A DNA stretch of 36,708 bases from a virus: positions 1 to 36,708 of the IMG/VR virus record IMGVR_UViG_3300006921_000054. One strand, written 5' to 3'. The notes below the pieces were generated by a model, which worked only from the letters and a program-made list of their open reading frames with translations, ran no database searches and was not told where the DNA came from. Positions 8,078 to 36,708 of the stretch are shown in pieces. The first letter of the stretch is position 1. Each line of letters starts with the position of its first letter. Made by a program: the position numbers and the translations under genes.

Positions 8078-8091
8078 ATAAAACCGCGTCT

Positions 8092-9678: not shown

Positions 9679-9704
9679 ACGCTTTTTAAAAAATAAAAAA
9701 AACT

Positions 9705-11991: not shown

Positions 11992-12441
11992 TTATTTATT
12001 AGCGTGAAAAGCATCTAATTGTTCTTGACAATCTTTTTCACTAGTACATTTTCTCCAGACACCACCTTTTTTGTTATTTAATATAACCCAGCCGTCTCCT
12101 CTTTTTTTAATACAACCAGAACCACCTTCTGATTCAGCACATCCTTTTCCTTCTGCTTCAGTTAAGTTTTTTTTAAGTCTAGAAATAAGTTTTGATTCTT
12201 CTAAACCCTCCATCCAGGCATCTTCATCATCTGAACCTGGTTGATTAGTCACATTAACATTAAGTTGTTCTTCCTCACCATTATCTTCTTCTATATCTTC
12301 TTTCTCTAATAGGTCTTTATATTTGGCTGTAGGAGTGTTCATCATTCCTAAATTTTGTGCGTTACCGTTACTTAGATTTTCTTTTACTAATTTTTCTATT
12401 AAATCTACTAACTCACCTTCTGACATTCTTATTTTTTTCAT
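11992..12441 (-). CDS. Small protein with a C-terminal Cys-containing GW-type domain
   Basis: A 149-residue protein of unknown function. The N-terminus (MKKIRMSEGELVDLIEKLVKE) is the short helical leader found in many phage structural proteins; residues 30-85 are acidic and disordered-looking. The C-terminal 50 residues form a compact module with four Cys and the pattern GDGWVILNNKKGGVWRKC...CQEQLDAFHANK. It resembles the small phage domain that ends in a charged helix with QL.A.H, often fused to virion proteins. The start overlaps the stop of the upstream gene by 4 nt (ATGA), implying translational coupling. Virion role inferred from context. Confidence 0.7.
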   Translation of the reverse strand: MKKIRMSEGELVDLIEKLVKENLSNGNAQNLGMMNTPTAKYKDLLEKEDIEEDNGEEEQLNVNVTNQPGSDDEDAWMEGLEESKLISRLKKNLTEAEGKGCAESEGGSGCIKKRGDGWVILNNKKGGVWRKCTSEKDCQEQLDAFHANK

Positions 12442-13957: not shown

Positions 13958-13967
13958 TATAAATATC
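13958..13967 (-). promoter_or_regulatory. Candidate late promoter element, minus strand, before 13943 gene
   Basis: Read on the minus strand it is GATATTTATA followed by ATAAAAAC, ending 14 nt before the ATG at 13943. The first base overlaps the stop codon of the upstream gene. Its 18-nt block equals the plus-strand copy starting at 11531. Confidence 0.65.
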
Positions 13968-21904: not shown

Positions 21905-22648
21905 TTAAACCCTCTTTTGTAAAGAATCAAAAACCCTTTCTATTTTTGCTATTAAAGGATTTCTAACAACATCAGATTTATTAAATTGTACACAACCAAT
22001 TTCGTCTATGTCTTGAAAGTGGTCCATTAAGAAGGTTAAACCATTATGACCTTTGGAATCCTGTTGTCTTTCATCCCCTAAGAATATCATTTTAGAATCT
22101 CTACCTAATCTTGTCATAATAGTCCTTATATTTTCTTGTGATATGTTTTGAGCTTCATCTATAATGATAATCGACCTATCTAGATTAATTCCCCTCATAT
22201 AAGCAATCGGTAATTCTTCTATAGTTTTTAACTCCCTAAGTCTAGATGTGATAGTTTGTCCCACCAATTTTTCAAAGTTATGTACAAATGAAAACATAAA
22301 GGGTTCCATTTTTTCTCTTAAACCACCTTTAAGAAACCCAATCTCCTCATTTTTTAATGTGGTTACAGATTTTACAATGACAATTTTTTTATATTTAGCA
22401 TAACGTTTGATTAGTTTTAGTGCTTCAGCACACGCTAAATAAGTTTTACCTGTACCAGCCGGACCAGAACAAATAACAACTTCTTTTTCTTTTATAGCAT
22501 TGACGAGTGCTTTTTGATTTTCAGTTTTACACTTAACATTAATCGTCATAGTGTCCGAAAGTCTTTTTTCTTCGGTATTATTTTGGTAAATCCATTCTTC
22601 TACCTCCATTTGTTCCTCTCTACTTAATTTTTTACTTCTCCTTCCCAT
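21905..22648 (-). CDS. phoH: PhoH family ATPase
   Basis: P-loop ATPase of the PhoH family, common in marine phages and thought to act in RNA metabolism or stress response; its role in infection is not settled. The 247 residues hold Walker A GPAGTGKT (62-69), Walker B SIIIIDEAQN (about 159-168), a sensor segment MIFLGDERQQD and the family's conserved SGPAGTGKTYLACAEA context. The first 35 residues are a charged extension. It sits between fcl and an unknown gene on the same strand, separated by 15-18 nt, so it is probably transcribed with the glycan genes. Confidence 0.95.
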   Translation of the reverse strand: MGRRSKKLSREEQMEVEEWIYQNNTEEKRLSDTMTINVKCKTENQKALVNAIKEKEVVICSGPAGTGKTYLACAEALKLIKRYAKYKKIVIVKSVTTLKNEEIGFLKGGLREKMEPFMFSFVHNFEKLVGQTITSRLRELKTIEELPIAYMRGINLDRSIIIIDEAQNISQENIRTIMTRLGRDSKMIFLGDERQQDSKGHNGLTFLMDHFQDIDEIGCVQFNKSDVVRNPLIAKIERVFDSLQKRV

Positions 22649-22666: not shown

Positions 22667-23617
22667 TTATTTTCTACAGCTTTCATAATTATCAACAAAC
22701 CACTCTATAGTTTCTTTTAGACCATCATCTAAACTAGTGAATTTAAAGTCTGGTAAATAAGATAATAATTTACTATTGTCACTAGGTTTTCTAAATTGAC
22801 CGTCAGGCTTGTCCGTTTGCCAAATAACTTCACCTTTAAAGTCCATATGTTTAACTATTAGGTTAACGACTTCTTTTATAGAAATTTCCTGTGATGTGGT
22901 TAAAATCAAAGGTTCCTCCTCATCATAACTTTCAACAACCCACTCTGTTAATTTAGCCACATCTTTAGAGTATATAAATTCTCTAAGTGGTTTCCCACTC
23001 CCCCAAATCTTAAATGGGGTGTTATTTTTTTTCGCCATATAACATTTATGGATTAGTGATGGTATAACATGACCATTGTCCACATCAAAATTATCATTAG
23101 GCCCATAGATGTTTGTTGGTATTACAGATACGTAATTTAGACCATATTGTTCTCTATATGCACGAATTTGTATGTCTGCCATTCTTTTAGCGTAAGCGTA
23201 AGGGTAGTTTGAGTTGTGTGGTTCACCTAAATGTATTTTTTTTTCGGTTAAAGGGTAGTCTACTTCATTTGGAAATACACAAGTAGATAAAAAACAAACT
23301 AGTTTAGTTACCCCATACTTTCTACAGGATTCTATAACGTTTGTGTTAATCATAATATTATCATAAAAAAACTCACCTTTCATATTCATATTACCACCTA
23401 ACCCACCTACTCGGGCCGCACAATGAACTACATTTAATGGTTTTTCCTTGCGGAATAGTTCATCACATATAATTGGGTCACGTAAATCCTTAGAACTATT
23501 GGTTTTTATATCTGCTGAGATATTGGAACCAACTAAACCCCTACCACCAGTAACTAATAGCCTAGGTCTCTTAACATGATTTTCACCATAATCTAATATT
23601 TCCATGTTACTTTTCAT
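22667..23617 (-). CDS. fcl: GDP-L-fucose synthase (epimerase/reductase)
   Basis: Converts GDP-4-keto-6-deoxy-D-mannose to GDP-L-fucose with NADPH. The 316-residue SDR enzyme shows TGGRGLVG (23-30, cofactor binding), STCVFP (111-116, active Ser111 and Cys113), YPYAYAK (Tyr140 and Lys144 of YxxxK) and GPNDNFDVDNGHVIPSLI with the catalytic His, all matching E. coli Fcl/WcaG. It directly follows gmd, which makes its substrate, with an 11-nt overlap if ATG 23617 is used; the ATG at 23605 (M5) is possible too and would remove the overlap. Confidence 0.95.
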   Translation of the reverse strand: MKSNMEILDYGENHVKRPRLLVTGGRGLVGSNISADIKTNSSKDLRDPIICDELFRKEKPLNVVHCAARVGGLGGNMNMKGEFFYDNIMINTNVIESCRKYGVTKLVCFLSTCVFPNEVDYPLTEKKIHLGEPHNSNYPYAYAKRMADIQIRAYREQYGLNYVSVIPTNIYGPNDNFDVDNGHVIPSLIHKCYMAKKNNTPFKIWGSGKPLREFIYSKDVAKLTEWVVESYDEEEPLILTTSQEISIKEVVNLIVKHMDFKGEVIWQTDKPDGQFRKPSDNSKLLSYLPDFKFTSLDDGLKETIEWFVDNYESCRK

Positions 23618-24584
23618 AATGTTCTATCCAATATTCAATCATTTCATCCATCATAGACTCAAAGCTATACCGGGGTGTCCAACCCAATAGTTTTTTTGCT
23701 TTACTACAATCACCTTTTAAGTGAGTTAACTCCTCAGGTCTAAGGTACTTTTTATCTACAGAAACATAATCAGTCCAATCTAAATCTAAAGATTTAAATA
23801 CATACTCAACCAGGTCTTTAACGGTATGTGAAATTCCAGTAGAACACACAAAATCATCTGGTGTGTCGTGTTGTAATATTAACCACATAGCTTCTACATA
23901 ATCTTTGGCGTGACCCCAATCTCTACTAGCTTCTAAATTACCTAATTTTAATTCATTTGATAAACCAAATTTTATTTTTACCGCTTCTTTTGCGACTTTA
24001 TTGGTTACAAAATTAATTCCCCTTCTTGGTGATTCGTGATTAAATAATATACCATTAGAGATAAACATTTTATATGAGTTTCTGTAATTTCTACATATGT
24101 TGTACCCAAAAACTTTAGCACATCCATAAGGGGAAACTGGGTTAAGTGGTGTTGTTTCTCGCTGATACCCATCATCATCTATACTATTACCGAACATTTC
24201 CGAGGAACTTGCTTGGTATACTTTGATTTTGGGGTCAGTTAACCTAACAGCTTCTAGTAAGTTTAAAACACCTAGACCAGTTACATTAGAAGTATATATC
24301 GGTTGGTCAAAACTAATTCTTACATGAGATTGTGCAGCTAGATTATATATTTCGTCTGGTACACATTTTTGTATAACACTTATGACTGAGGAAAGGTCAG
24401 TTAAATCACCATAAACTAAATTTAACTCTTTGAAAACATTATCTGGAATTCTTGCAGTCTGATTTTCAGCTACAGAATTTCTCTTAAGAATGCCCCAAAC
24501 CTCATAGCCTTTTTCTAGTAAAAATTCGGCCAAATAAGAACCATCTTGACCGTTTATTCCTGTTATTAGAGCTACCTTCGACAT
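23607..24584 (-). CDS. gmd: GDP-mannose 4,6-dehydratase
   Basis: Makes GDP-4-keto-6-deoxy-D-mannose from GDP-mannose, the first step to GDP-fucose and also to perosamine or rhamnose. The 325 residues carry TGINGQDG (8-15, NADP), SSSEMFG (126-132, catalytic Ser/Glu), SPYGCAK (Tyr153 and Lys157), NHESPRRGINFVTNK and the LEASRDWGHAKDYVEAMW segment, which together are diagnostic of Gmd. The gene overlaps fcl by 11 nt and ends the pathway pair. GDP-mannose itself would come from the host, as no manC-like gene is in the window. Confidence 0.97.
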   Translation of the reverse strand: MSKVALITGINGQDGSYLAEFLLEKGYEVWGILKRNSVAENQTARIPDNVFKELNLVYGDLTDLSSVISVIQKCVPDEIYNLAAQSHVRISFDQPIYTSNVTGLGVLNLLEAVRLTDPKIKVYQASSSEMFGNSIDDDGYQRETTPLNPVSPYGCAKVFGYNICRNYRNSYKMFISNGILFNHESPRRGINFVTNKVAKEAVKIKFGLSNELKLGNLEASRDWGHAKDYVEAMWLILQHDTPDDFVCSTGISHTVKDLVEYVFKSLDLDWTDYVSVDKKYLRPEELTHLKGDCSKAKKLLGWTPRYSFESMMDEMIEYWIEHYEK

Positions 24585-25310
24585 CTATATATTGTTTAAT
24601 TTTATTATTTCTTCTTTATTTAAATTTTTACCGTTTCTCACACAATCCATTAAGTAAGCTTTCATTTTAATGTGATATTTTTCGTGTGACATATAAAATG
24701 AATCGTGTGAAGTGACATGTAAGTAATTTAGGTTAGGTGTCACGTTAAACTTACCACCTTCTAATAACCATAAATAAAGTAAGGAGTTAACCTCCACGTA
24801 CTTTATAACGTCCTCCCAACCAGACACAACAGAAATATACTTATTTTTATTAACAAAGTAATTACCACCATTAAATAAAGCCCCCAAATCCTCTAATAAA
24901 TCAGACGGTTTATCAAATGTAGTGCCCTCATATTTAATAAAATTAAAAGGTCCAAATTGTGATGGTTGGTAAATAGTATTAACATCCCATTCTTTTATCC
25001 CTAGTAAAGTTTCGACGTAAGAATCCTTAAGTAAATTATCGGAGTCGAATAATACACACCAATCATTACTTGCCTGGGTCATAGCTATATACTTGTTATG
25101 AAAAGCACCCACATTCTTGTCATTTCTAAATAATTTTACGTGAGCTTTGGTATCACAAAAATCTTTTAGTTTGTTGAATATGGATATTTCCGAACAATCA
25201 TCATTAATTACAATCTCATCGAATAATGTAACATTATCAATTAATCTGATAATCGCATCCACCCTATTGTAGTTGGTTAAAACTAAACTAATCTTTTTTT
25301 CATTCATCAT
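24585..25310 (-). CDS. Glycosyltransferase family 2
   Basis: A 241-residue GT-A enzyme. The N-terminus KISLVLTNYNRVDAIIRLID (5-24) is the usual nucleotide-binding start, EIVINDDCSE the second strand, and CVLFDSDNLL (about 86-95) holds the DxD metal site. It is short, with a compact acceptor region that includes a conserved-looking HVTSHDSFYMSHEKYH segment. It overlaps the upstream ketoisomerase by 11 nt and abuts gmd with no gap. Donor and acceptor are not predictable. Confidence 0.88.
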   Translation of the reverse strand: MMNEKKISLVLTNYNRVDAIIRLIDNVTLFDEIVINDDCSEISIFNKLKDFCDTKAHVKLFRNDKNVGAFHNKYIAMTQASNDWCVLFDSDNLLKDSYVETLLGIKEWDVNTIYQPSQFGPFNFIKYEGTTFDKPSDLLEDLGALFNGGNYFVNKNKYISVVSGWEDVIKYVEVNSLLYLWLLEGGKFNVTPNLNYLHVTSHDSFYMSHEKYHIKMKAYLMDCVRNGKNLNKEEIIKLNNI

Positions 25311-25701
25311 TAATAGCTTTTATAAATTCATCGTAAGTTAAAATATAGTCATTAATATCATATTTTGTAGAACAAATAACTAGTATTTCAGCGTCATCAG
25401 TTAAAAACTCTTGGGAATCCCACACTAACTCGGGGATTAAAACAGATTCATTCTGTTTTAAATTTATACTTTTAGTTATCTTACCATCATCTAACATCAC
25501 ATTAACCGAACCCCTAGTGCAAATCAAATATTGTTTGGTCTTATGGTGTGAATGGTTACCCCTAACAGAACCAACAGGAACGTTATTAACCACAAAAATT
25601 CTTTTAGGGATAAAATCAAACATATCCAAATCAATGGGTAGTAAATAACCCCTTTTATCCTCAAAACAATTAAATGTGTGTTTTTTAATATTATTTAACA
25701 T
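25300..25701 (-). CDS. dTDP-4-keto-6-deoxyhexose 3,4-ketoisomerase (FdtA/QdtA/WxcM type)
   Basis: A 133-residue cupin that moves the keto group from C4 to C3 of dTDP-4-keto-6-deoxyglucose, preparing it for amination. It has the family pattern VRGNHSHHKTKQYLICTRGSV (46-66; RGxHxH at 47-52, where the His act in catalysis), then a cupin core with LKQNESVLIPELVWDSQEF and the typical ending CSTKYDINDYILTYDEF. It overlaps the next gene upstream, a DegT aminotransferase, by 11 nt, exactly the partner expected for making a 3-amino-3,6-dideoxy sugar. Which stereoisomer (Fuc3N or Qui3N) cannot be read from sequence. Confidence 0.88.
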   Translation of the reverse strand: MLNNIKKHTFNCFEDKRGYLLPIDLDMFDFIPKRIFVVNNVPVGSVRGNHSHHKTKQYLICTRGSVNVMLDDGKITKSINLKQNESVLIPELVWDSQEFLTDDAEILVICSTKYDINDYILTYDEFIKAINDE

Positions 25702-26635
25702 ATTTGTTTATTGTGTTTGTTATAAAATTTATATTTTCAGTGGTTAGTTTTTCGTGGAATGGGATACTGACGGTTTTTTTAGATATAATCGATGTGTTTC
25801 TACATATCTTATCTGTAACATCATAAGGTCTACTAGTGGATTCACGATAGGCTTTTACCTCGTGTAATGCCTCATAGTGTACGCCACAAATAATACCACT
25901 GGATTTCATCTTATCTATAAATTCTTTACGGTCAGAAACCTCAATACGATATAGATGGTCAGAAGTGTTATTATAACCTAGAGAAGAGTTATATTTTTTT
26001 CTAATAGAATTAAGTTTTCTTTTTTTAGAATCTAAAAGTTTTAAATTTTCATTTGCTATGTAACATTGAATCGAGTTCATGTACATTTTATACCCAGGAA
26101 ATTTAATTGTTCTATCCCAGTTATTGTGAGCATAAGTCATCCCATTCATTGTAGCCTCCTTAAACCACTTTATCTTTTCATAGTCATTGGATACTATAAT
26201 CCCCCCATCGGAACTACCTATTGGTTTAGTTGGGTAAAAACTAAATATCATTAAGTCTTCATCATTCGCTTCATTCTTAAACTGGTTTCGGTCAACCTTT
26301 TGAGCGGAGTCAATAATTTTATAATCATCAAAGTGATGAAGAATGTAAGAATCACCAACCCAATCCGTATCATCATTAAAATCTAATTTATTACCAGAAG
26401 TTAGTATTGCGTTACACACTACAGGTGGTATCATACTAGGTACTATCACATGCTGATTTTTATTTAACAAAGATAAAAATATAGCATTTGTAGCACTATT
26501 AATAGAACAAGCATATTTGGCTCCTACATAGTCACAAAAGTTAGACTCAAACTTTGTCACTATTGAACCATGTAGATAATGGTTAAATTTAGACGTGTCT
26601 ATTTTGTGGTTTTCTATATTAAATAAATTTATCAT
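25691..26635 (-). CDS. DegT/DnrJ/EryC1 aminotransferase (sugar nucleotide)
   Basis: PLP-dependent transaminase that adds an amino group to a keto sugar nucleotide. The 314-residue protein is shorter than the usual 370. PLP-contacting residues are visible: INSATNAIF (45-53), IIDSAQKV (Asp109) and FYPTKPIGSSDGG, with Lys137 as the Schiff-base lysine. Paired by overlap with the 3,4-ketoisomerase, it most likely makes dTDP-3-amino-3,6-dideoxyhexose, as FdtB or QdtB do. A C-terminal region with CGVHYEALHEVKAYR is the usual substrate-binding ending. Confidence 0.88.
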   Translation of the reverse strand: MINLFNIENHKIDTSKFNHYLHGSIVTKFESNFCDYVGAKYACSINSATNAIFLSLLNKNQHVIVPSMIPPVVCNAILTSGNKLDFNDDTDWVGDSYILHHFDDYKIIDSAQKVDRNQFKNEANDEDLMIFSFYPTKPIGSSDGGIIVSNDYEKIKWFKEATMNGMTYAHNNWDRTIKFPGYKMYMNSIQCYIANENLKLLDSKKRKLNSIRKKYNSSLGYNNTSDHLYRIEVSDRKEFIDKMKSSGIICGVHYEALHEVKAYRESTSRPYDVTDKICRNTSIISKKTVSIPFHEKLTTENINFITNTINKYVK

Positions 26636-26638
26636 TAA

Positions 26639-27355
26639 TTAAAATTTGTATTGTAATTGGTCTATTTCGTCACCATGAATTTCTTGTATTATCGATTTTA
26701 ATTCCGCTGTATATTTTGTACGGTAATTTTCTGTGCCATTACCCCTTAAAAGTAATCTACCATCCCTATCTTGCCTATATTTGAGCACATTAGGTCCTTT
26801 ATGTGGTAAGTCACCTAAAGAGAATTTATTTTTTAAATGTGACCAAGACTCATTTAAATTTTCATACCTCATAATATAATCTAATTCCCCCAAATCACTA
26901 AACCAATAGTCTAACTTTACAAAATGTTGTATGTGTGAAATTCTAACATTATTCATATACAACCATGGTTTATATTCTTCTTCTCCAGTATTTTTAGAGT
27001 CATTAAATGTATATTCTTGTGGGTTAGTATGGTAATTTTTTAAATGACGCACATATTCCTCGAAAGACATTTTAACCCCACCATCTGGTTTGATATGATG
27101 TAGATATGATGACCAAAATCTGTCGTAGGTGTTACGAACTACTGTAAATTTAAAATAGTCTTCAGGTTTACCATTTTCTGAATTTATAATATGTGAAAGA
27201 TTTTTATGTCTATACTTAGTAAATAATTTAATTTTTGATGTTTCTTCGGACATCGTAGCGTCCACGTTTGCTCCCAGAGCAGACTCTATAGAAGTACCAG
27301 CGGTTTTTGGCATATGGACAAAAATTATATTTTCCTCTTTTCTTTTTACTAACAT
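26639..27355 (-). CDS. Sulfotransferase (PAPS-dependent, Sulfotransfer_2 type)
   Basis: A 238-residue enzyme that would transfer sulfate from PAPS to a carbohydrate. The 5'-phosphosulfate-binding loop is IFVHMPKTAGTSIESAL (11-27, with PKTAGTS at 16-22), and the 3'-phosphate-binding motif is FTVVRNTYDRFWSSYLHH (70-87), both in the expected order and spacing. The C-terminus has a YRQDRDGRLLLRG-like tail and ends near LYRTKY-type helices. Because neighbouring genes make fucose and amino sugars, a glycan hydroxyl is the likely acceptor. PAPS must come from the host. Confidence 0.88.
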   Translation of the reverse strand: MLVKRKEENIIFVHMPKTAGTSIESALGANVDATMSEETSKIKLFTKYRHKNLSHIINSENGKPEDYFKFTVVRNTYDRFWSSYLHHIKPDGGVKMSFEEYVRHLKNYHTNPQEYTFNDSKNTGEEEYKPWLYMNNVRISHIQHFVKLDYWFSDLGELDYIMRYENLNESWSHLKNKFSLGDLPHKGPNVLKYRQDRDGRLLLRGNGTENYRTKYTAELKSIIQEIHGDEIDQLQYKF

Positions 27356-27356
27356 T

Positions 27357-28193
27357 TTAAATTAATTTATAGAGTTTGTAGTCGTTGTTACCACCAGTTT
27401 TATATAGAGTTTTCCAGAATACATCCCTAAAATAATCAGTTTTTAGTTTATACTCCACTATAAAGTCCTTGGAATGAATTATTTTTTTATTTTTTTTACC
27501 ACACATAGCAGCAGTTATACAGAATGTAGAAGGGCTGGATATGATATAATCACACTGAGACAATCCAAAAAAATCTCCTTGTCCCCAATTAGAAGGGTTA
27601 AACCTATCAGTAATTTCACCAAGACTATATTCGATTTTGTTATCATCCAACCATTTAACAACACTTTTAAATGAGTCTAAGCTAATGTCGTCATAATATA
27701 AGGTTAACTCAAAATTTTCTTTAACTTCTTCGATAACGAACTTTATAGCGTTAATATAGTAGGAAGCATCCAGTAAACACTTAGGGTCCCATATTCTAAA
27801 ATCTTTACCCCTAAAATGTACACCAACATTAATCTTATCTGAATCGATATTAGGTTTAATCTGACTAAAAAGGTCAAATGTAGAAACTTCGTTAAATTTA
27901 AAAAATAATTCGAATAATGTCGCACTTTCTAATTTATAATTTAAATTAGGGTGTAAAGTTATATTTTCTTTAGGGGTATCTAATAATTCTTGTGGTGTTA
28001 AGTTGTGATGTATAGTCATTTCAGGTAATTGTGGTACCATACCTTTAATTTCTTTAAAAATATCTAACCCTGTAAAATTAGTAAAATGGACTTGGTGACC
28101 TGAAAAGTGGGATAATTGCAAAACATTATTAAGTAATAGTAATCTATTACCGAAACCAGCACCTGCCCATCCTCCAGTATCCGCAACTATCAC
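27357..28193 (-). CDS. Glycosyltransferase family 11-like, putative alpha-1,2-fucosyltransferase
   Basis: A 278-residue enzyme. The N-terminal GWAGAGFGNRLLLLNNVLQL (8-27) matches the G-x-G-N start of GT11; NVGVHFRGKDF (122-132) corresponds to the HxRRGDY motif that binds GDP-fucose; and GLSQCDYIISSPSTFCITAAMCG (about 226-248) corresponds to the conserved S-x-C-D...NSSFSWWAA region. The changes from the consensus (RGKDF for RRGDY) make the call family-level. It lies in the same operon as gmd and fcl, which supply GDP-fucose, and it starts in a 4-nt overlap with the FkbM gene. Confidence 0.72.
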   Translation of the reverse strand: MIVADTGGWAGAGFGNRLLLLNNVLQLSHFSGHQVHFTNFTGLDIFKEIKGMVPQLPEMTIHHNLTPQELLDTPKENITLHPNLNYKLESATLFELFFKFNEVSTFDLFSQIKPNIDSDKINVGVHFRGKDFRIWDPKCLLDASYYINAIKFVIEEVKENFELTLYYDDISLDSFKSVVKWLDDNKIEYSLGEITDRFNPSNWGQGDFFGLSQCDYIISSPSTFCITAAMCGKKNKKIIHSKDFIVEYKLKTDYFRDVFWKTLYKTGGNNDYKLYKLI

Positions 28194-28876
28194 AATAAAG
28201 AAGTTTTTACATATAGAGCATCACCCCAATGACCAGGTATCCTACCAGCACCAATCGGTGTGATGGTTTCATTGGCCCCATCCATCTGGTATTCGTGTGT
28301 TAAAGTACGAGTGAATCCTTTGTTCTTTAAATACTCATCCATTTCACCGATTAAATGACAACCTTCGTAGACATTAACCGTGTTAAATTCACTATATATA
28401 AAATCCATATGACTAATATGGTCATTAAATGACATAATAGCATTTAAATCCGCACCTTGGATATCTACATTTAAAAAATTGTAGTCACCGACATTAATAT
28501 TTTCTTCAGAAATTAAGGTATCAAATCTCTTAGAAACTAATTTAAATTTATCTATGTAATGGACAGTTGGGAAAAATCTCTTATGTTCACCCAGTTCTAA
28601 TAACGATGAAGATTGTCCATTGTTACTAATCTTAAATTCCATTTCATTTTCACTATCATAAATAGCTTCGTTAAAAACTCTTATGTTGTTATCCTCACTA
28701 AACCTACTTGTTATTCCTTCAGCTAGAACTGGATTAGCCTCAACCCAAATCTGTTTATCCATACCAGCTTCTTTATACGCTTCATATTCCTCCGCTTCAT
28801 GAGCTCCAATATGTATAACCCCCTTCATAGGTATATTTGGGTAGGTCTCGACTATTTTTTTTACTTTTATAAACAT
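28190..28876 (-). CDS. FkbM family methyltransferase
   Basis: A 228-residue SAM-dependent O-methyltransferase of the FkbM type, which usually methylates sugar hydroxyls on surface glycans or small molecules. Motif I is VIHIGAHEAEEYEAYKEAG (20-38), followed by IWVEANP (the acidic residue binding SAM ribose) and the family hallmark YNFLNVDIQGADLNAIMSF (about 128-146). The C-terminal YVKTSLL strand closes the fold. It overlaps the fucosyltransferase gene by 4 nt (ATGA), suggesting coupled expression. Confidence 0.9.
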   Translation of the reverse strand: MFIKVKKIVETYPNIPMKGVIHIGAHEAEEYEAYKEAGMDKQIWVEANPVLAEGITSRFSEDNNIRVFNEAIYDSENEMEFKISNNGQSSSLLELGEHKRFFPTVHYIDKFKLVSKRFDTLISEENINVGDYNFLNVDIQGADLNAIMSFNDHISHMDFIYSEFNTVNVYEGCHLIGEMDEYLKNKGFTRTLTHEYQMDGANETITPIGAGRIPGHWGDALYVKTSLL

Positions 28877-28879
28877 TTT

Positions 28880-29515
28880 TTAAATTTTTTCTATTAATAT
28901 TGATTTACCGAAAACATTGTTTTCTTCTTTTATTATTATGTGGTTGGTTAGTAGACTATTAAACTCTTGTAACCCTATATGTGAACGAACAGTGTCTAAA
29001 TTCCCGTAGGTCTTATAGGTGTCTAAACGTGTAGACTCGTCAAAATACTGTCTATGTATTATAAGGTATCTACCCATATTTGTTAGTAACTTCTCTACAA
29101 CCTCTAATGGGTTAGGTAATTCCGAAATAAAACTATTACAAATAATTAAATCGAACTTTTGTAATATACTATAGTCTGATTTATTAGCGTCAAATTCTAT
29201 GTAGTTAAGATTGGGATTTACCACTTTAGCTACATTTTCTATGATATGAGGTAGGTCTAGTCCTGTGTAGTCACTTCCCGCGTACAATCTACCTACCTCT
29301 GCTGCTCCGCAACCAAGGTCCGCTATAGAGTTAACCGAAATTAACTGAACTAAACTATCTAACACACTAAAGTGTTCAGCTTCTTCTAATCTACCCCACC
29401 CAGGTAAGTTACCTAAAGCACCATCAATCATTTGTTGAGGTAGAACAGTATTGTCATACCACGCAACCTCACTAGTTAAATTTTTTTCCATTTTTGTAAA
29501 ACAATTAAATTCCAT
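28880..29515 (-). CDS. Class I SAM-dependent methyltransferase
   Basis: A 211-residue enzyme with the Rossmann SAM-binding motif SIADLGCGAAEVGRLYAG (about 58-75) followed by YTGLDLP, and motif IV-like FDLIICNSFISELPNP (about 118-133). The domain set fits putative sugar O-methyltransferases of polysaccharide clusters. The N-terminal 50 residues are helical. It is 1 nt from the SGNH gene upstream and 3 nt from FkbM. The acceptor is unknown. Confidence 0.85.
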   Translation of the reverse strand: MEFNCFTKMEKNLTSEVAWYDNTVLPQQMIDGALGNLPGWGRLEEAEHFSVLDSLVQLISVNSIADLGCGAAEVGRLYAGSDYTGLDLPHIIENVAKVVNPNLNYIEFDANKSDYSILQKFDLIICNSFISELPNPLEVVEKLLTNMGRYLIIHRQYFDESTRLDTYKTYGNLDTVRSHIGLQEFNSLLTNHIIIKEENNVFGKSILIEKI

Positions 29516-29516
29516 T

Positions 29517-30461
29517 TTATTTATATTCTATTATTTTTAAATCACCACCTATGTAAAAACATTCAGTAAGTTTTAATAATTTCTTCGTACCCCAAGGAGC
29601 ATTATGTTCACACACACTCCTATCAAAGTCATCCTCCAAAATCTTTATGGTAGTTTTTTCACCAACCCTAAACTTCATATTTACCATTCTTCTTTCATAA
29701 TAACACCACCTATCCCAATTATTAACGATTTCTCCATCTATAGATAATAAACCGGTATATGGGCCTATAAACTGGGAAACTCCAATTATTTCACATGGGC
29801 CACCCAATACTAATCTATCATATACTCTCATATTTAAATCCATTCTTTTCACACCACAATATTTATTTCGTGGTGGATACTCTAAAGGCATTTCTACTTT
29901 ATTATATAGATTTTTAAATTCTTCATTAATAAGTTTAGCATATTCTTCCGCACCAAAAGGTGTTGTGTGTATACCATCTCTTAATATTATATTTAAATCA
30001 GAAAAAGATTCTGATATATCCAGGGTTGGGATATTTAATCCGTTTATGTATTCATTGATTTTTTTATAAATCTCCTCCTTCTCAACAGGACTACCAGTTC
30101 TACCATCAATACTCTTATCGGGGAAAGTCAGAAAAACCAACTTTATTCCCTTACTTAAAAAACTATATATAATAGTATTGATATATTGTTTTATATCCTC
30201 AAAATCTTCCTCGATAGTCGTAACCTCATTTTTATCCTTACCATAAACAATATATCCCGTACTAAACCAATCTATAAAACACCACTCAGGGTCAAATTTT
30301 ATTACATCTTCTATATAACATATTCCCGCATCGTTTAAGTGCATTGAACCGTTACCAAAAGGTTTAACATCGAATTGCGGGTTTGAATTTGCAAAGTACT
30401 GCCAATATCCATTTTGTTGTTGAGTGACACTCGCACCAAAAAAAGCTATCTTATTTTTCAT
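29517..30461 (-). CDS. SGNH/GDSL-type hydrolase or acyltransferase
   Basis: A 314-residue protein with SGNH fold markers: FFGASVT (7-13, nucleophile Ser11, block I), GNGS (36-39, block II Gly) and RDGIHTTPFGAEEY (161-174, catalytic Asp162 and His165, block V). Block III (usually GxND) is replaced by DWFSTGY near 64-70. Such proteins remove or add acyl groups on surface polysaccharides. Residues about 195-314 form an additional, beta-rich domain of unknown kind, perhaps carbohydrate-binding (with several Trp and Tyr residues). Confidence 0.82.
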   Translation of the reverse strand: MKNKIAFFGASVTQQQNGYWQYFANSNPQFDVKPFGNGSMHLNDAGICYIEDVIKFDPEWCFIDWFSTGYIVYGKDKNEVTTIEEDFEDIKQYINTIIYSFLSKGIKLVFLTFPDKSIDGRTGSPVEKEEIYKKINEYINGLNIPTLDISESFSDLNIILRDGIHTTPFGAEEYAKLINEEFKNLYNKVEMPLEYPPRNKYCGVKRMDLNMRVYDRLVLGGPCEIIGVSQFIGPYTGLLSIDGEIVNNWDRWCYYERRMVNMKFRVGEKTTIKILEDDFDRSVCEHNAPWGTKKLLKLTECFYIGGDLKIIEYK

Positions 30462-30474
30462 ATTTTTAATTTAA

Positions 30475-31296
30475 TTACCAATAACACCCACCTTCTACAA
30501 TATTATGATTGTGTGGGGTTTCATTTTTTAGGGGCCTAACCCAGTTTTCGTTGTACATTTTTGACACATCTTCATGTGAATCCCACCTAGCACCTTTAAT
30601 ACCAAATAATAATTGTAGTCCACCCCCAACGTAAATTGCGGACCTATTTAAATTTTCTTTTATGTGAGCAACTAAAGGTAATCCATAGTGACCACAACTC
30701 AATAGAGCAATATCAAAGTCTAATTTAGAAATTTCATCTTTCATAACTTGTAGTGATTCAGCCCATGAACTATGAGGCCCACCATTGCCACCTATAGATT
30801 GTACACATTGATATGGGATAAGAGTAAATTCTGGTAATTCCTCACCACCCCATAATAACTCACGTTTTTTATATTGTGACATAATACTTTCCATGAAAGA
30901 ACTCACAATTAAAACTTTTTTACCTTTTAATTTAGAACTCCACGGGACATCAAAATAAAAAGGTTCTATTGACCTATTACCAACTTTTATTGAGTCAGGG
31001 GAAAAAGCGTTAAGTAAGTTTTGTTGTGCTTCTTCTATAATATGAGAACCCACCCAAGACACATGTATATCTGCACACTTAATACCTTTTAAATAATTTT
31101 CATAAAAATTTTCGTATGAGTGACCATAATCCCCACCCTTCCTTAACAGATGCATATCATAATCACTAAATGAACCAGTTTTAAATCTATTATATACAAT
31201 TCCACACTCACCGATACCTAATCTACTAACAGCGAAAACTCTATTCTCCTCTATATATCTACTAATTAATTTATTTCCCTCTTCGTTACTTAACAT
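30475..31296 (-). CDS. GT-D-like glycosyltransferase (DUF1792 type)
   Basis: A 273-residue protein from the preferred start; the frame is open to an ATG at 31353, but that overlaps the upstream oxygenase gene by 53 nt, while ATG 31296 lies just past its stop codon. The N-terminus has VFAVSRLGIGECG (about 20-32), equivalent to the GT-D motif RxGDGE, with Ile in place of the Asp. The C-terminal half has FDIALLSCGHYGLPLVAHIK and AIYVGGGLQLLFGIKGARW, which match the rest of this fold. Loss of the metal-binding Asp may mean an altered or inactive enzyme. Confidence 0.72.
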   Translation of the reverse strand: MLSNEEGNKLISRYIEENRVFAVSRLGIGECGIVYNRFKTGSFSDYDMHLLRKGGDYGHSYENFYENYLKGIKCADIHVSWVGSHIIEEAQQNLLNAFSPDSIKVGNRSIEPFYFDVPWSSKLKGKKVLIVSSFMESIMSQYKKRELLWGGEELPEFTLIPYQCVQSIGGNGGPHSSWAESLQVMKDEISKLDFDIALLSCGHYGLPLVAHIKENLNRSAIYVGGGLQLLFGIKGARWDSHEDVSKMYNENWVRPLKNETPHNHNIVEGGCYW

Positions 31297-31300
31297 AGTA

Positions 31301-32086
31301 TTAGTCCTGGTTTTTTTTATAAAAACGTTTATCCCCCGCCTGGTACCATTCATTTAGGTTGGATGGTACACGAGAGTGGTAACCTAGTATTTGCTGTAGT
31401 GGTTCACTAAACTCACCCATTCTTTCATAACCTAAAGCACGAGGATAATCCATTAATTGTTTGTAGAAAGATTTGGTAAAAGTAATTGGGAGTGCCATTC
31501 TCCCTTTTTTTGATTTATTAAGTCCTGAAGCGTGAAATAAATTACCATTAAATAATAAAACGTCTCCTTTTTTCCCTAAAGTTTTTACAGCATTTGCGTG
31601 AAAAAATTCATCAGAAGGTGTAGACGAATCAAGATGTGAACCAGGTAATACTAAAGTAGACCCATTAGTTTCAGTAAAATCATCTAACATTACTAAAATA
31701 TTTAAATATAATGGTATTTCACCACTATACGCTCTAACATCCCTATGAACAAGTTTAGAAAAATTTTGTTGTGTAGGTATGTTATTTAAAGCACTAAAAG
31801 AGTTTAATATAAAATTACTTTTAAAGAAATTTTTCTTTATCTCGTCTAATAATCCTGACTCCATTAAGTACTCTAAAAATTCTATGAACATATGGTTATC
31901 TAATAATACATTTAATGCAACACCAGGTACCGTATTTTCATTGCCCAAATTAAGTTGTGTTTGATGGTGAGACTCGAATACTTCCGGTAAAACTTTTTTA
32001 ATCTTAGCAACCCAAGACTCACTAATTTTATTTTCTAACACACAAAAACCATTATCCTTTAATTCTTTTATTTTTTCTTTATTCAT
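31301..32086 (-). CDS. Fe(II)/2-oxoglutarate dioxygenase, phytanoyl-CoA dioxygenase (PhyH) type
   Basis: A 261-residue oxygenase that would hydroxylate a carbon using Fe(II), 2-oxoglutarate and oxygen. The iron triad is VHRDVRAY (His114 and Asp116) with LFHASGLN (His185); KGRMALP supplies Arg196 for the oxoglutarate carboxylate. LVLPGSH (about 145-151) is also typical of PhyH proteins. In phage and bacterial glycan clusters such enzymes are found beside sugar-modifying genes. The substrate here is unknown. It overlaps the upstream acetyltransferase by 4 nt. Confidence 0.88.
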   Translation of the reverse strand: MNKEKIKELKDNGFCVLENKISESWVAKIKKVLPEVFESHHQTQLNLGNENTVPGVALNVLLDNHMFIEFLEYLMESGLLDEIKKNFFKSNFILNSFSALNNIPTQQNFSKLVHRDVRAYSGEIPLYLNILVMLDDFTETNGSTLVLPGSHLDSSTPSDEFFHANAVKTLGKKGDVLLFNGNLFHASGLNKSKKGRMALPITFTKSFYKQLMDYPRALGYERMGEFSEPLQQILGYHSRVPSNLNEWYQAGDKRFYKKNQD

Positions 32087-32745
32087 ATTATTTTTTCGTT
32101 TTTTTGTCTTTCCCTAATTATTTTAGTTGGGTTCCCATACGCGAGTACGTTAGATGGTAGTGATTTGGTGACCAGTGAAGCAGACCCCACCACAGTATTA
32201 TCACCGATAGATAACCTATCAAATATTGTTACATTCATAGTAATAGCTGAATACCTACCAACACTAACAAAACCACCTAAAACAGACCCAGCAGACACAC
32301 TAGCAAAATCACCGATATTACAATCGTGTTCAATCTGACACCCTGTGGCGTAAAAAGTAAAATTACCTATAAAAGCTCCAGGATTAAATATGACACCAGC
32401 CATAGCTATAACACCAACACCAAGGGTAACATTACTTCCTATAATTACTGATGGATGTATAGCGTTAACCCATTTAAACGAAGGTACTAGGTCAGACACA
32501 TAATCAAAAATATTTTTTCTAATCCAATTGTCCCCAATAGTTATTATGCCATTATTTACATTATATTTTTTAGTTATAACTTGTAAATCTTCTTTGCCCC
32601 CTAATATTGGAAATCCAAAAAGTTCATCACCCACTTTTATATTATCATCCACGATACCTAATATTTGATACTTGTTCTCTTTTTGAATGATATCTATAGA
32701 GTATTGAACATGGGTCCCCCCACCTATTAGGATTATCTTTTCCAT
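32083..32745 (-). CDS. Sugar O/N-acyltransferase, NeuD/PglD type
   Basis: A 220-residue enzyme with an N-terminal Rossmann-like domain (KIILIGGGTHVQYSIDII, 3-20) and a C-terminal left-handed beta helix of hexapeptide repeats (about 93-210). The segment CQIEHDCNIGDFASV (about 135-149) has the catalytic His of PglD/NeuD, and the end has the ALVTKSLPSNVLAYGNPTKII-like cap. Such enzymes N-acetylate amino-sugar nucleotides. With the ketoisomerase and aminotransferase of this island it would complete a 3-acetamido-3,6-dideoxyhexose route. It overlaps the oxygenase gene by 4 nt. Confidence 0.9.
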   Translation of the reverse strand: MEKIILIGGGTHVQYSIDIIQKENKYQILGIVDDNIKVGDELFGFPILGGKEDLQVITKKYNVNNGIITIGDNWIRKNIFDYVSDLVPSFKWVNAIHPSVIIGSNVTLGVGVIAMAGVIFNPGAFIGNFTFYATGCQIEHDCNIGDFASVSAGSVLGGFVSVGRYSAITMNVTIFDRLSIGDNTVVGSASLVTKSLPSNVLAYGNPTKIIRERQKNEKII

Positions 32746-33774
32746 CTATAATATTTTATCTTTATAAACTAAATTATTAATTTTTTTATGCCAACCAAGT
32801 AATGTTTGGTACCATTTTAATGTATGTGTTGTCGGGTCATCAGACTTTAGTGAACCATCTGTTAAAGCAGATTCTATTTCTTCTACACCCTTTTTTATTG
32901 TCCATTTTGTCTCAAATCCTAAGATTGATTTAATCTTATCAAAGTTTACGTTATAAGTTCTCATATCTGGATTATCTGGAACATAAATAATTTTAGGTTT
33001 ATTGGTTAATGAAGATGCCACTTGAGTCGCGATACTTTTAATTTTAAAATTTTGTTCATTACTACCTACATTAAAAATTTGTCCAGAAGACAGTTTAGGT
33101 TTTTCTAAACACAGTATAAAAGCACTAACTACATCTCTAACATGTATAAAAGGTCTCCACTGTTCACCATCACCCATAATATAAACCACTTCATCTCTCC
33201 ACCCACACAAAGACATTATGTTGATGGCCAAATCAAATCTCATACGTGGGGATAAACCATATATTGTAGAGTTTCTTAATAAGGTAACACTAAACTCACT
33301 AGAATCATGTAACCCCAACAAAGCCATCTCAACAGCAACCTTACTCTTCGCGTAATCAGTTATGGGGTTTAATTCTTCTACTTCTGTTAATGAAGTTTTT
33401 AAACCCGCACCGTAAACGCTAGCAGAACTAGAATAAACATATTGTTTAATACCTAATTTTTTAGATAATTTAGCTAATCTAATTGACCCATCACAATTAA
33501 TTTCTTGGGTAAACCTAGGGTTTATCTCTGCTGTTGCGTCATTACTAAGTCCCGCTAAATCAATTACTATATCAATACCCTTAAGGATGGAATCATCAAA
33601 ATAACGTATATCTTCCTGTATAATTGTAAAGTTATCGTCATCTATATGAGAAAGTTTATCCAAACCAAAAAAGAATCTGTCTAAAGCGTAAACTTTATAG
33701 TTTCTTTTTAAAAGTTCTTCACACATGATGGAGCCGACATAACCACCCGCCCCACTAACTAATACTTTTTTCAT
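32746..33774 (-). CDS. NAD-dependent sugar nucleotide epimerase/dehydratase
   Basis: A 342-residue extended SDR enzyme. The cofactor motif is VSGAGGYVG (6-14), the substrate and catalytic region YSSSASVYGAG (114-124) and DYAKSK (Tyr141 and Lys145). The product cannot be deduced: 4-epimerase, 4,6-dehydratase and 4-reductase are all possible, though the lack of a TDE motif argues against dehydratase. It overlaps the aminotransferase gene upstream by 20 nt, so the two may act in one route. Confidence 0.88.
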   Translation of the reverse strand: MKKVLVSGAGGYVGSIMCEELLKRNYKVYALDRFFFGLDKLSHIDDDNFTIIQEDIRYFDDSILKGIDIVIDLAGLSNDATAEINPRFTQEINCDGSIRLAKLSKKLGIKQYVYSSSASVYGAGLKTSLTEVEELNPITDYAKSKVAVEMALLGLHDSSEFSVTLLRNSTIYGLSPRMRFDLAINIMSLCGWRDEVVYIMGDGEQWRPFIHVRDVVSAFILCLEKPKLSSGQIFNVGSNEQNFKIKSIATQVASSLTNKPKIIYVPDNPDMRTYNVNFDKIKSILGFETKWTIKKGVEEIESALTDGSLKSDDPTTHTLKWYQTLLGWHKKINNLVYKDKIL

Positions 33775-34927
33775 TTTTAAAAAAATTATTTACAGTCTCA
33801 AATAGATAATCCATTTCTTCATCTTTCATAATAGTATGGATAGGTATAGAGACTACTTTATCTTTTATTTCGTTAGTATTGGTTAAATCTAACGACATGT
33901 ACTTGTTTTTATATAAATCTAATTCGTGTACGGCTGTATAATATCGTCTAACCATAATATTATTTTCTTGCATATAATTAACAAATGGTGTAGCCTCCTC
34001 CTTGAGTACTATAGGATAATATAGGTAAGTACAATTTACGTCCGATGAAACATCCATAACATTGAAAAATTTAGAATTTTCTTTGGAACCAAAAAACTTC
34101 CTATAACGTTTTATATTATTTTTTCTATTTTTTAAAATAAAATCTACCTTTTCTAAATTCTTAATCCCAACCAAGGCCGAGATTTCCTGCATTTTAGAAT
34201 TTAATCCAGGGACATCAACATTACCTCTAACTTTTTCATATTGACCAAAATCTCTTAATTTTATTAAGGTATTATGAATTTCTGGGTCGTTAGTTATCGC
34301 ACCTCCACCTTCCATCGTAGAAAATATTTTAGAAGCGTGAAAACTATATATTTCACTAAACCCATGATTACAAGTAAATTTATTTTTGTAGGTAGAACCA
34401 AAAGCAGGTGCATTATCAAAAATTACTTCTATATTATTTTCATCACTAAATTCACGAATTAATTCTATGTTGGGTAAGTTACCGTAAGCCCCTACACAAA
34501 CCATCATTTTTATATTAGGTACGTAAGGGTCTAATCCATCCACTAAAGAAGAGTAATTTAACTTTAATTTTTTAATGTCTAAAATAAATCCTCCGTCTAC
34601 ATCACAAAATATAGGTCTTAAATTATTCATTAGTATTGCATTAATGGTCCCTGCAAAAGTAAAAGAAGGTACTAAAACATCGAAAGAATCTAAAGGACCG
34701 TAACCCAACTTTAATTTATAAGCTTGAATTAAACTAAATAAAGCCATCTCCCCATTAGAAAATGTTAATGGTTTAAGTTTAGATTTATAAAACTTGCCTA
34801 GGTCTGTTTCTAATTGCCTCACGTACTGTGAGTTATTAGTAACCATACCACTACTCAAACACTCAGTGAATTCAGATTCTATTTCAGATAAGGAAGGTAA
34901 AAAAGGCTTTACTATATTAATTTTCAT
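33755..34927 (-). CDS. DegT/DnrJ/EryC1 aminotransferase, second copy
   Basis: A 390-residue PLP enzyme, full length for the family. PLP contacts are SNGEMALF (57-64), IFDNAPAFGS (Asp171) and SFHASKIFSTMEGGG, where Lys200 forms the Schiff base. The N-terminus VKPFLPSLSEIESEFTECL is typical of sugar aminotransferases. It is not a close duplicate of the 25691-26635 enzyme. One option is a perosamine-type 4-aminotransferase fed by Gmd, but that is speculation. It starts 31 nt after the upstream gene, one of the larger gaps in the island. Confidence 0.9.
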   Translation of the reverse strand: MKINIVKPFLPSLSEIESEFTECLSSGMVTNNSQYVRQLETDLGKFYKSKLKPLTFSNGEMALFSLIQAYKLKLGYGPLDSFDVLVPSFTFAGTINAILMNNLRPIFCDVDGGFILDIKKLKLNYSSLVDGLDPYVPNIKMMVCVGAYGNLPNIELIREFSDENNIEVIFDNAPAFGSTYKNKFTCNHGFSEIYSFHASKIFSTMEGGGAITNDPEIHNTLIKLRDFGQYEKVRGNVDVPGLNSKMQEISALVGIKNLEKVDFILKNRKNNIKRYRKFFGSKENSKFFNVMDVSSDVNCTYLYYPIVLKEEATPFVNYMQENNIMVRRYYTAVHELDLYKNKYMSLDLTNTNEIKDKVVSIPIHTIMKDEEMDYLFETVNNFFKNEKSIS

Positions 34928-34931
34928 ATTG

Positions 34932-34962
34932 AAAATATATGAATAAAAAACCTATTAATCAA
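34932..34962 (-). promoter_or_regulatory. Possible host-type (Bacteroidota) promoter before second aminotransferase
   Basis: On the minus strand, TTG (34962-34960) and TATATTTT (34939-34932) are 20 nt apart, close to the Bacteroidota consensus TTTG - 19-21 nt - TAnnTTTG. It lies in one of the larger gaps of the island and ends 4 nt before the ATG at 34927. In DNA this AT-rich such matches arise by chance, so confidence is low. Confidence 0.2.
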
Positions 34963-35834
34963 CGATAGTTATTAAGTTGTTTTTGAAATTTGGTTTTTAA
35001 TTGTCCCATATCTCTTTGTATCGATTCTGGGTGTGAACCCGTAAATTTTTCAGTATAACATTCACCCCTCATATGTGGTTTAAATTCGTGAACACCAATA
35101 AACTCTTTTTCCACAATATCCTTTTTACCACCAACCCAAGGAAGGTAGACTCTAGTAAAATAATTATCAATACAATTTTGTCTACTTACACTGTCTTTGT
35201 AATAATTTACTTTTTTATAAACCTGGTCTGGAAAAGTGTAGGAGTAATGATACATTTGTACACCCAACGAATTAAATAAAGTGTCACTATCTATATGTTT
35301 TTTAGTTATATTAGAATCTATAGGGTATTGGATGGTAGGTGGTCTATGAGTCAACCAAGTAGAACCTTTGGTATACCTAAAAATACGTAAAAAATTATCT
35401 CTATTTAATTCAAAACCAGTTAGGTAGTCATCAAAACCACCATAAAAAGAACAACTACGTACACCAACACTAGTAGGTTTTTCAGATTCTAAAAAAGATA
35501 TAATTTTTTCTAAATCAGTAGTACTATAAATTTCATCAGAATCTAAATTCCAAATATAATCTATATCATCATTTATGTGTTGCATATATGCTCTACATTG
35601 GTCATCTTTTTCATTAAATTGGCCGTGCACTATTTTAATTTTATTTTCTGGGTCCGGAAACTCATCTAAAATTTTATTAGTTTCGTCTAAGGATGTGGTT
35701 CTCCCCTGTCTTTGCCAATAAGATACAGGACCTTCAGCGATTAATATTTGAGACGCGAAAGGATATACCTGCTCCAAACACTGTCGGAGGACATAATCAC
35801 CTTCAAAAACAATCATTCCAAAAGCTATTTTCAT
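34959..35834 (-). CDS. Glycosyltransferase, GT2/GT17-like
   Basis: A 291-residue GT-A-type enzyme. The opening IAFGMIVFEGDYVLRQCLEQV (3-23), the second strand ILIAEGPVSYWQ and the DxD site YIWNLDSDEIYS (about 93-104) are in family order. GVRSCSFYGGFDDY and the later His-rich QMYHYSYTFP segment resemble eukaryote-type GT17 and phage glycosyltransferases. It overlaps the methyltransferase gene by 4 nt. Donor unknown. Confidence 0.83.
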   Translation of the reverse strand: MKIAFGMIVFEGDYVLRQCLEQVYPFASQILIAEGPVSYWQRQGRTTSLDETNKILDEFPDPENKIKIVHGQFNEKDDQCRAYMQHINDDIDYIWNLDSDEIYSTTDLEKIISFLESEKPTSVGVRSCSFYGGFDDYLTGFELNRDNFLRIFRYTKGSTWLTHRPPTIQYPIDSNITKKHIDSDTLFNSLGVQMYHYSYTFPDQVYKKVNYYKDSVSRQNCIDNYFTRVYLPWVGGKKDIVEKEFIGVHEFKPHMRGECYTEKFTGSHPESIQRDMGQLKTKFQKQLNNYR

Positions 35835-36361
35835 AAGTTTTTTATTTTAAATTTTGCCATAGTCATAGTATTCTCGATATATTCTAGATATTCTAAACTT
35901 TTACCATAATAATCTCTAGCTGGGTTATAGTAAGGGTTATCAGGTGTAGTAAAATCGTGAATAAAAACTATAGTATTTTTATGCCCTAATAAATGACATT
36001 TAGAAGCACATGCAACTCTTGCACGACCATCTATTAAAATTATATCAAAAGGACCATATTCAATAGGAGTATCTACATATTCTTTAAAATCTATATATTT
36101 ATTCTCCTCATCATATTTTTCCCCAACACCATCCACGCTAGGTGGTCGGAATAATAATTTACAATTATCATATGATTTTTTAGATACCTCCATATTCTTT
36201 CTTATTTTTTCATACCATTCAGCATTATGTTCTATAGACACTAAAAAAGCTACTTGGTCAGCTATTTGAGGTGTAGAGAGACCACTACCCCATTCTAAAA
36301 CTTTATGTGTTTTGTCAAGGTGGTCATTAAAATATTTATTTTCTGCGTCGTAAGCGAACAT
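35831..36361 (-). CDS. SAM methyltransferase-like protein
   Basis: A 176-residue protein with a class I methyltransferase fold: VLEWGSGLSTPQIADQV (21-37) as motif I, VSIEHNAEWYEKI as the ribose-binding acidic strand, and FDIILIDGRARVACA (about 104-118) as motif IV. It is short and without a large insertion. It is coupled by a 4-nt overlap to the downstream glycosyltransferase and lies 2 nt after the incomplete gene upstream. The target is probably a sugar, from context. Confidence 0.8.
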   Translation of the reverse strand: MFAYDAENKYFNDHLDKTHKVLEWGSGLSTPQIADQVAFLVSIEHNAEWYEKIRKNMEVSKKSYDNCKLLFRPPSVDGVGEKYDEENKYIDFKEYVDTPIEYGPFDIILIDGRARVACASKCHLLGHKNTIVFIHDFTTPDNPYYNPARDYYGKSLEYLEYIENTMTMAKFKIKNL

Positions 36362-36363
36362 TT

Positions 36364-36708
36364 TTATAATTTATATAAAGATTGGGTAAGTTTAAGATTT
36401 GTAAAGTACTCGTCATAAATTACCTTAAGATTTATATTATTTTTATATTCGTCTAAAGGGGTATATATGTGATGCATTAGTGAGGGTACATAACTATCAC
36501 CATTAAATTGAAATTGGGAAAAATGAGTAAAAACTAAATTTTGTTCTTGATTTTCCCATATAATTTTAGTTGGGGAAATAAATTCATAGAGTTGCCATAA
36601 CCACGGAGCACCATGACCTATATTTTCATCTAAATAAATAGAATCTTTAGGGCATAGATTAGGGAAATTATCTAAGTATTTTTGGTCACCACAAGTCGCT
36701 AACTGTGG
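36364..36708 (-). CDS. Partial gene, C-terminal 114 residues of a glycosyltransferase-like protein
   Basis: The frame is open from the window edge to a TAA at 36364. Its N-terminal part is outside. The visible sequence starts with CGDQKYLDNFPNLCPKDSIY and continues with NIGHGAPWLWQLYEF, the DQKYLD...N.APW pattern usual in one group of bacterial and phage glycosyltransferases. It then ends with a helical tail. The next gene downstream starts 2 nt away. It shows that the glycan island continues beyond this window. Confidence 0.7.
   Translation of the reverse strand, partial: PQLATCGDQKYLDNFPNLCPKDSIYLDENIGHGAPWLWQLYEFISPTKIIWENQEQNLVFTHFSQFQFNGDSYVPSLMHHIYTPLDEYKNNINLKVIYDEYFTNLKLTQSLYKL

Follow-up and report, generated by a model that had tools for sequence, protein, structure and literature searches.

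Introduction

Clusters of sugar genes have been listed in large marine phages since at least 2010, when the T4-like cyanomyoviruses P-SSM2, S-SSM7 and S-SM2 were reported to carry lipopolysaccharide (LPS) clusters, one of which is near phoH; whether such clusters are working or filler was left undecided, at least in the part of that report considered here (PMC3037559). In P-SSM2 the clusters read gmd-fcl-epimerase-GT2-GT2-oxygenase-GT1-...-methyltransferase-GT, where GT stands for glycosyltransferase. Moraphages, large aquatic phages described in 2025, have four core GTs, and their islands of variable composition were noted with the content left as future work (PMC12619734). Marine T4-like pelagimyophages carry sugar genes and GTs within a hypervariable region (PMC7029224). 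A group of four GTs is also found in cultured coliphages of the Stephanstirmvirinae (phi92/phAPEC8-like). The nearest parallel in function is offered by the chloroviruses, of which PBCV-1 has its own GDP-fucose pathway. Capsid glycosylation in PBCV-1 involves multidomain GTs, a conserved glycan core with variable decoration and synthesis independent of host organelles (PMC7826918). Here we analyse a 36.7-kb IMG/VR record, IMGVR_UViG_3300006921_000054 (36,708 nucleotides, referred to as the window), in which a sugar-gene island follows phoH at 22667-36708. We find that the island fills a fixed site between constant flanks at which cassettes are exchanged, and it is probably one allele of an exchangeable 'serotype' locus whose enzymes would assemble a phage-encoded glycan in the cytoplasm, with a virion protein as its most likely acceptor. 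Phage sugar-gene clusters were already known; the exchangeable layout between constant flanks and its sharing among unrelated phages appear to be new.

Results

Scanning IMG/VR for GT412 and GT353 gathered 155 loci. About 150 loci of this lineage have one layout in common: GT412, dUTPase, the two-domain GT546, a variable cassette, the pair gmd and fcl where present, phoH, GT353, GT273 and a sigma-like gene. A dUTPase comes directly after GT412 in 66 of 68 loci, and at the other end GT353, GT273 and the sigma-like gene follow one another in 71 of 71 loci of sufficient length. The variable cassette lies on the upstream side of GT353, where phoH is found in 56 of 57 loci; 38 have a member of the gmd family there and 31 one of the fcl family. 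This GDP-fucose pair forms a conserved edge of the island and stands outside its variable part. In the window, the constant genes of this side are the following.

21905..22648, minus strand: phoH, constant left flank (PF02562 1e-58; 90-98% identical in close relatives)
19974..21035, minus strand: GT353, constant GT-B glycosyltransferase (profile match PDB 8xsg 9e-20)
19169..19990, minus strand: GT273, constant GT2-type glycosyltransferase (PF00535 2e-5; TagF N-terminal match 5e-6)
18459..19163, minus strand: sigma-70-region-2-like protein, constant neighbour of the GTs (weak PF04542 0.005)

An earlier sequence-only reading of the window had placed two further GTs beyond phoH, and both (19169-19990 and 19974-21035) are real. 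The sigma-70-region-2-like protein at 18459-19163 might control late genes, the cassette included. On the opposite side, GT546 (G001:4123-5763, locus L166, and its orthologues; G001 is the contig IMGVR_UViG_3300025099_004370) combines PF13712 with PF13439. Its N-terminal GT domain is constant, and its C-terminal domain varies among relatives, being GT4-like, GT2-like or much shortened. Since the N-terminal domain is kept and the C-terminal one swapped, one recombination boundary apparently lies inside the gene.

A comparison of related phages for gain and loss of the block, proposed in the sequence-only reading, returned the same site with differing cassettes. Between GT546 and phoH, the relatives G003 (whose contig stops within the island), G004, G015, G016 and G007 hold differing sugar genes. 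Among 80 of the proteins encoded there are GT2, DegT aminotransferases, epimerases, methyltransferases, FdtA, GT10 and GT11 fucosyltransferases and sulfotransferases. G004 has the longest cassette interval measured, about 19.6 kb. In one locus (L270) 81 bp separate GT546 and phoH, an empty site, hence the cassette is optional and the core GTs are retained. Turnover was compared among 53 loci, with gmd and fcl left out of the cassette genes. Pairs at 70-85% GT412 identity share 95% of their flank genes and 6% of their cassette genes, and pairs at 85-97% identity share 100% and 24%, respectively. Some distant locus pairs nonetheless have most of a cassette in common. In the clearest case, the window and the 294-kb contig G029, this amounts to about 15 of 18 cassette genes, nearly collinear and 29-77% identical, on backbones that are mostly 40-60% identical; as cassette and backbone have diverged alike, old shared types or an old transfer both fit. 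The ratio of nonsynonymous to synonymous substitution rates (dN/dS) is 0.07-0.18 across the measurable cassette genes, a rough range as dS is high in several comparisons, and judged by this ratio the cassette is under purifying selection.

The window stops inside the island. G001, from the same metagenome, overlaps it at 33755-36708 (2,954 bp at 99.9%), and with an overlap below full identity the two contigs may derive from close strains. G001 completes the GT8-like gene cut by the window edge, adds one cassette GT (219 aa) and then GT546; the island stops about 1.2 kb past the window edge, and beyond GT546 lie dUTPase, GT412, DNA polymerase, head-tail adaptor, tail sheath and tail tube. The sequence-only reading let the island reach the window edge, and sugar genes indeed run throughout, but that edge is not its end. 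The contig extension it proposed thereby revealed the remaining island and the constant phage flank. Phage genes stand at both island edges in several independent metagenomes, which makes chimerism unlikely.

A GT8-GT291 trunk crosses phage lineages. Relatives of GT291 were found in IMG/VR on 71 viral contigs, mostly 55-91% identical, and a GT8-like gene adjoins or is near GT291 in 71 of 71; AT1 and FdtA are present in 47-52 of these contigs, within the fetched DNA. GT291 gave no match among 50,697 phage records. Among bacteria, in a search that recovered nine of nine positive controls, it had remote matches, with 34% identity at most, in 4 of 396 Bacteroidota genomes, and none in the Ramlibacter phylum (399 genomes). 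Being widespread in viral contigs and near-absent from the sampled bacteria, the trunk looks like a phage gene pool. Shine-Dalgarno use among the GT8-GT291 carriers ranges from 0 to 77%. The window lineage has no Shine-Dalgarno sites and is A-rich near -11, which we take to be a Bacteroidota-like translation signal, and Flavobacteriia are our best guess for its hosts. Between about half and three quarters of the genes of G002 and other carriers use Shine-Dalgarno sites. Thus, the carriers probably have hosts of different phyla.

A collinear host chromosomal locus, which would have implied chimerism, was sought in part, and it yielded a three-gene submodule, AT2-epimerase-acetyltransferase, as the sole collinear bacterial counterpart of the island (AT2 51-61% identical, in Bacteroidota and other bacteria). 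No bacterial homologue of the full block came up in this search. The submodule is a bacterial sugar module that phages seem to have acquired. The order AT2-epimerase is the same in L357, L358, L360 and L361 (Chitinophagaceae, Ramlibacter, Segetibacter and Flammeovirgaceae), and a NeuD-type acetyltransferase is next in L358, L360 and L361.

All 18 open reading frames (ORFs) at 22667-36708 share the minus strand, no gap between them exceeds 31 bp, and their roles are nucleotide-sugar synthesis, sugar transfer or sugar decoration. This agrees with the operon-like, glycan-building run that had been read from the sequence alone, as does its assignment to a T4-like phage: terminase, portal, prohead protease and major capsid protein of T4 type (phrog_2, 213, 207 and 138) lie in this order on the plus strand at 2405-11471. 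The genes of the island are:

22667..23617, minus strand: fcl-like GDP-fucose synthase, conserved island edge (NCBIfam GDPFucSynFcl 2e-70, under the curated cut-off; phrog_540; YxxxK)
23607..24584, minus strand: gmd, GDP-mannose 4,6-dehydratase, conserved island edge (PF16363 9e-120; TIGR01472 405 bits against a cut-off of 415)
24585..25310, minus strand: GT2 glycosyltransferase (PF00535 3e-12)
25300..25701, minus strand: FdtA/QdtA-type dTDP-keto-sugar isomerase (PF05523 2e-32; QdtA/FdtA relatives in PDB)
25691..26635, minus strand: short DegT aminotransferase AT1, probably for a 3-amino sugar (PF01041 4e-34; SFYPTK lysine motif; 86% G003, 59% G029)
26639..27355, minus strand: carbohydrate sulfotransferase (PF03567 2e-12; phrog_3347)
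27357..28193, minus strand: fucosyltransferase-superfamily protein (weak PF01531 (GT11) 0.016; HxRGxD invariant among homologues; Foldseek top POFUT2/FUT8)
28190..28876, minus strand: FkbM methyltransferase (PF05050 3e-11)
28880..29515, minus strand: S-adenosylmethionine (SAM) methyltransferase (PF08241/PF08242 ~1e-4; 54% homologue in G029)
29517..30461, minus strand: SGNH/AlgX-like protein (weak PF16822 0.028; GAS and DGIH motifs; 56% homologue in G029)
30475..31353, minus strand: GT-D-like glycosyltransferase (PF22882 1e-6)
31301..32086, minus strand: PhyH 2-oxoglutarate oxygenase (PF05721 3e-21)
32083..32745, minus strand: NeuD/PglD-type sugar acetyltransferase (TIGR03570 161.4 bits, passing the cut-off of 160.8)
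32746..33774, minus strand: nucleotide-sugar epimerase/dehydratase (PF01370 6e-42)
33755..34927, minus strand: LegC/PseC-like sugar aminotransferase AT2 (PF01041 1e-63; sugar-aminotransferase relatives in PDB)
34959..35834, minus strand: GT2-like glycosyltransferase GT291, cross-lineage phage trunk gene (PF00535 4e-8)
35831..36361, minus strand: weak methyltransferase-like protein (no profile match but PCMT 0.21; the G029 cassette has a 47% homologue)
36364..36708, minus strand: GT8-like glycosyltransferase, truncated by the window edge (whole gene G001:2610-3467, PF01501 0.003)

The catalytic motifs are as expected, with YxxxK in gmd, fcl and the epimerase, SFxxxK in both aminotransferases, HxD in PhyH, KTAGTS in the sulfotransferase and HFRGKD in 27357-28193. 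The latter is probably a fucosyltransferase using GDP-fucose. A PDB sequence search with it gave no match and its structure model is poor (predicted local distance difference test, pLDDT, of 46), so that this call depends on motifs and weak matches. RmlA/RmlB and GDP-mannose synthesis were not found in the window, where the pathways are incomplete, and the precursors are therefore assumed to come from the host.

From 11992 to the window edge the minus strand is a single dense co-directional run. The baseplate genes, including a gp5-like spike gene, share direction and tight spacing (at most 31 bp) with the sugar block, which suggests late expression. Relatives of the window lineage measure 205-362 kb. 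A near-identity DNA search with the first 25 kb of the window found no match in phage records, and no photosynthesis gene is among the families found in the 36.7 kb of this partial genome.

Discussion

The island is, like the cyanophage LPS clusters, a run of nucleotide-sugar and GT genes near phoH in a T4-like genome. It differs in that its gmd is only about 51% identical and GT291 and GT353 are without homologue in phage records, and an exchanged core between constant GT flanks is not described for those clusters in the part of the report considered (PMC3037559). The sequence-only reading held so complete a set to be unusual; this does not stand beside the similar P-SSM2 cluster, the LPS clusters near phoH known from 2010, more than 600 viral relatives of gmd and about 150 loci of the same layout. 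Set against their published description, moraphages share T4-type genes, genomes of at least 200 kb, PhoH, dUTPase, a sigma factor and predicted Bacteroidota hosts (PMC12619734), and the window lineage combines several conserved GTs with PhoH, dUTPase, a sigma factor and genomes of at least 200 kb. However, lysine-tRNA ligase is found in 24 of 28 moraphages (PMC12619734), and class II aminoacyl-tRNA synthetases (PF00152, which includes Lys-tRNA ligase) in only 1 of 11 relatives here; the lineage is therefore not filed as moraphage. In pelagimyophages the hypervariable region is a tail-fibre host-recognition cluster (PMC7029224), whereas the cassette of the window lineage sits between GT546 and phoH. 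The coliphage four-GT group contains distant homologues of GT412 (25-27%), but its GT genes stand beside DNA replication genes, and no variable cassette lies by phoH in the stretch inspected. One such group, in Escherichia phage nieznany (L446, 88806-91950), has a GT distantly related to GT412 and is a possible laboratory model. As in autonomous virion glycosylation, soluble virus-encoded GTs and nucleotide-sugar enzymes are combined here with a constant core and a variable part. Chloroviruses are eukaryotic viruses whose acceptor is known; the likeness is one of manner of working and no membership is claimed.

Between the two functions that the sequence-only reading had offered, a glycan on the virion or a remodelled host surface, the former is the more probable. 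GT412 and the N-terminal half of GT546 on one side and GT353 with GT273 on the other, all constant, would lay down a common base glycan, and the variable cassette would provide activated sugars together with the GTs and decorating enzymes that extend and cap it, in this presumed order. GDP-fucose would be supplied by gmd/fcl. FdtA with AT1 would make a 3-amino-6-deoxy sugar, and AT2 with the NeuD-type enzyme an N-acetylated 4-amino sugar, with host GDP-mannose and dTDP/UDP-hexoses as starting material. Assembly would be cytoplasmic, most likely onto a virion protein, and recombination in the constant flanks would exchange the cassettes as 'serotypes'. What favours such a cytoplasmic glycan on a phage product are the soluble GTs, the constant base with variable extension, the trunk across probable host phyla and the co-direction with baseplate genes. 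Several points weigh against it. The host phylum is read from missing Shine-Dalgarno sites, and both the glycan and its attachment to a protein are predictions. Weak profile matches underlie several gene assignments, and membrane helices were predicted solely by a hydropathy scan. These GTs could moreover draw on initiating enzymes or flippases of the host, so that a surface polymer is compatible with the missing membrane genes.

It is possible, although we put this forward tentatively, that several unrelated lineages of environmental phages, infecting different bacterial phyla, have in common and exchange a virion-glycan system of their own, made of a phage-only trunk (GT8-GT291 with the FdtA/AT1 amino sugar) and exchangeable fixed-locus cassettes. 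If true, bacteriophages would have their own equivalent of O-antigen serotypes, kept by selection on the virus coat. The defined locus yields named genes with which to test for exchangeable glycan coats on phages; such coats could influence adsorption, host range and virion recognition.

The main rival is that the cassette remodels LPS, capsule or S-layer of the host in the course of infection, excluding other phages or preventing re-adsorption to debris, while the host provides the lipid carrier, initiating enzyme and flippase. Its gene families are those of O-antigen loci, the AT2-epimerase-acetyltransferase submodule is collinear in bacteria, and similar pelagimyophage genes were so read by earlier authors (PMC7029224). 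We nevertheless regard it as rather unlikely. In the hydropathy scan, none of 57 upstream and 68 downstream loci encodes a protein with at least three predicted membrane helices, except for one 157-aa ORF outside the cassette. Known phage O-antigen systems, e.g. GtrABS, employ membrane proteins; that scan showed no polytopic protein in the cassettes, nor was a flippase, a polymerase or a lipid-initiating GT seen there, and in this they differ from Gtr-type and Wzx/Wzy systems. Trunk GTs in contigs with such different Shine-Dalgarno use, in phages with opposite translation signals, would not be expected of a device matched to the surface polymer of a single host, and GT291 is nearly absent from the sampled bacteria.

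Improbable, in our view, is that the GTs glycosylate modified bases of the phage DNA as in T4, with the cassette diversifying the base sugar. Phages this large often hypermodify their DNA, and GT412 is near dUTPase and DNA polymerase. However, the thymidylate-synthase family (PF00303, which would include hydroxymethylases) is found in only 5 of 11 large contigs; Tet/JBP gave no match in these 11, nor in the controls. A profile search of PDB with GT412 gave nothing useful and the fold search alone was informative: the GT412 model (pLDDT 90) resembles GT4-type enzymes, with no T4 AGT/BGT in the 50 best PDB matches. A sulfotransferase, a fucosyltransferase and several GTs are also more than known base sugars require.

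That a large phage merely carries the cluster along as filler DNA we hold to be very improbable. 'Stuffer DNA' was left open for the cyanophage LPS clusters, in the part of that report considered (PMC3037559), and the cassette ranges from almost zero to about 20 kb. Yet every ORF is intact, dN/dS is well below 1 and a 15-gene pathway stays nearly collinear over a deep split. Constant flanking GTs, fast cassette replacement against the neighbours, cassette types on distant backbones and purifying selection together argue against filler. An assembly chimera, in which a host polysaccharide locus was joined to a phage contig, is scarcely credible, since nothing was found in its support beyond the window contig itself stopping inside the island, the G001 overlap and many contigs of other metagenomes have phage genes at both edges, and GT291 is absent or remote in 795 sampled bacterial genomes.

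Two minor observations concern the backbone of the window. The 592-aa protein at 13967-15745 is fast-evolving, carries a gp5-like OB-fold motif and is probably the baseplate spike (weak T4 gp5 match, E 0.08); its fast evolution had made it a candidate glycan acceptor, which was dropped given the resemblance to gp5. Finally, a DNA repeat of 85% identity links 12287-12463 of the window with G001:27600-27772, and the ORF at 11992-12441 is partly duplicated near the tail genes of G001.

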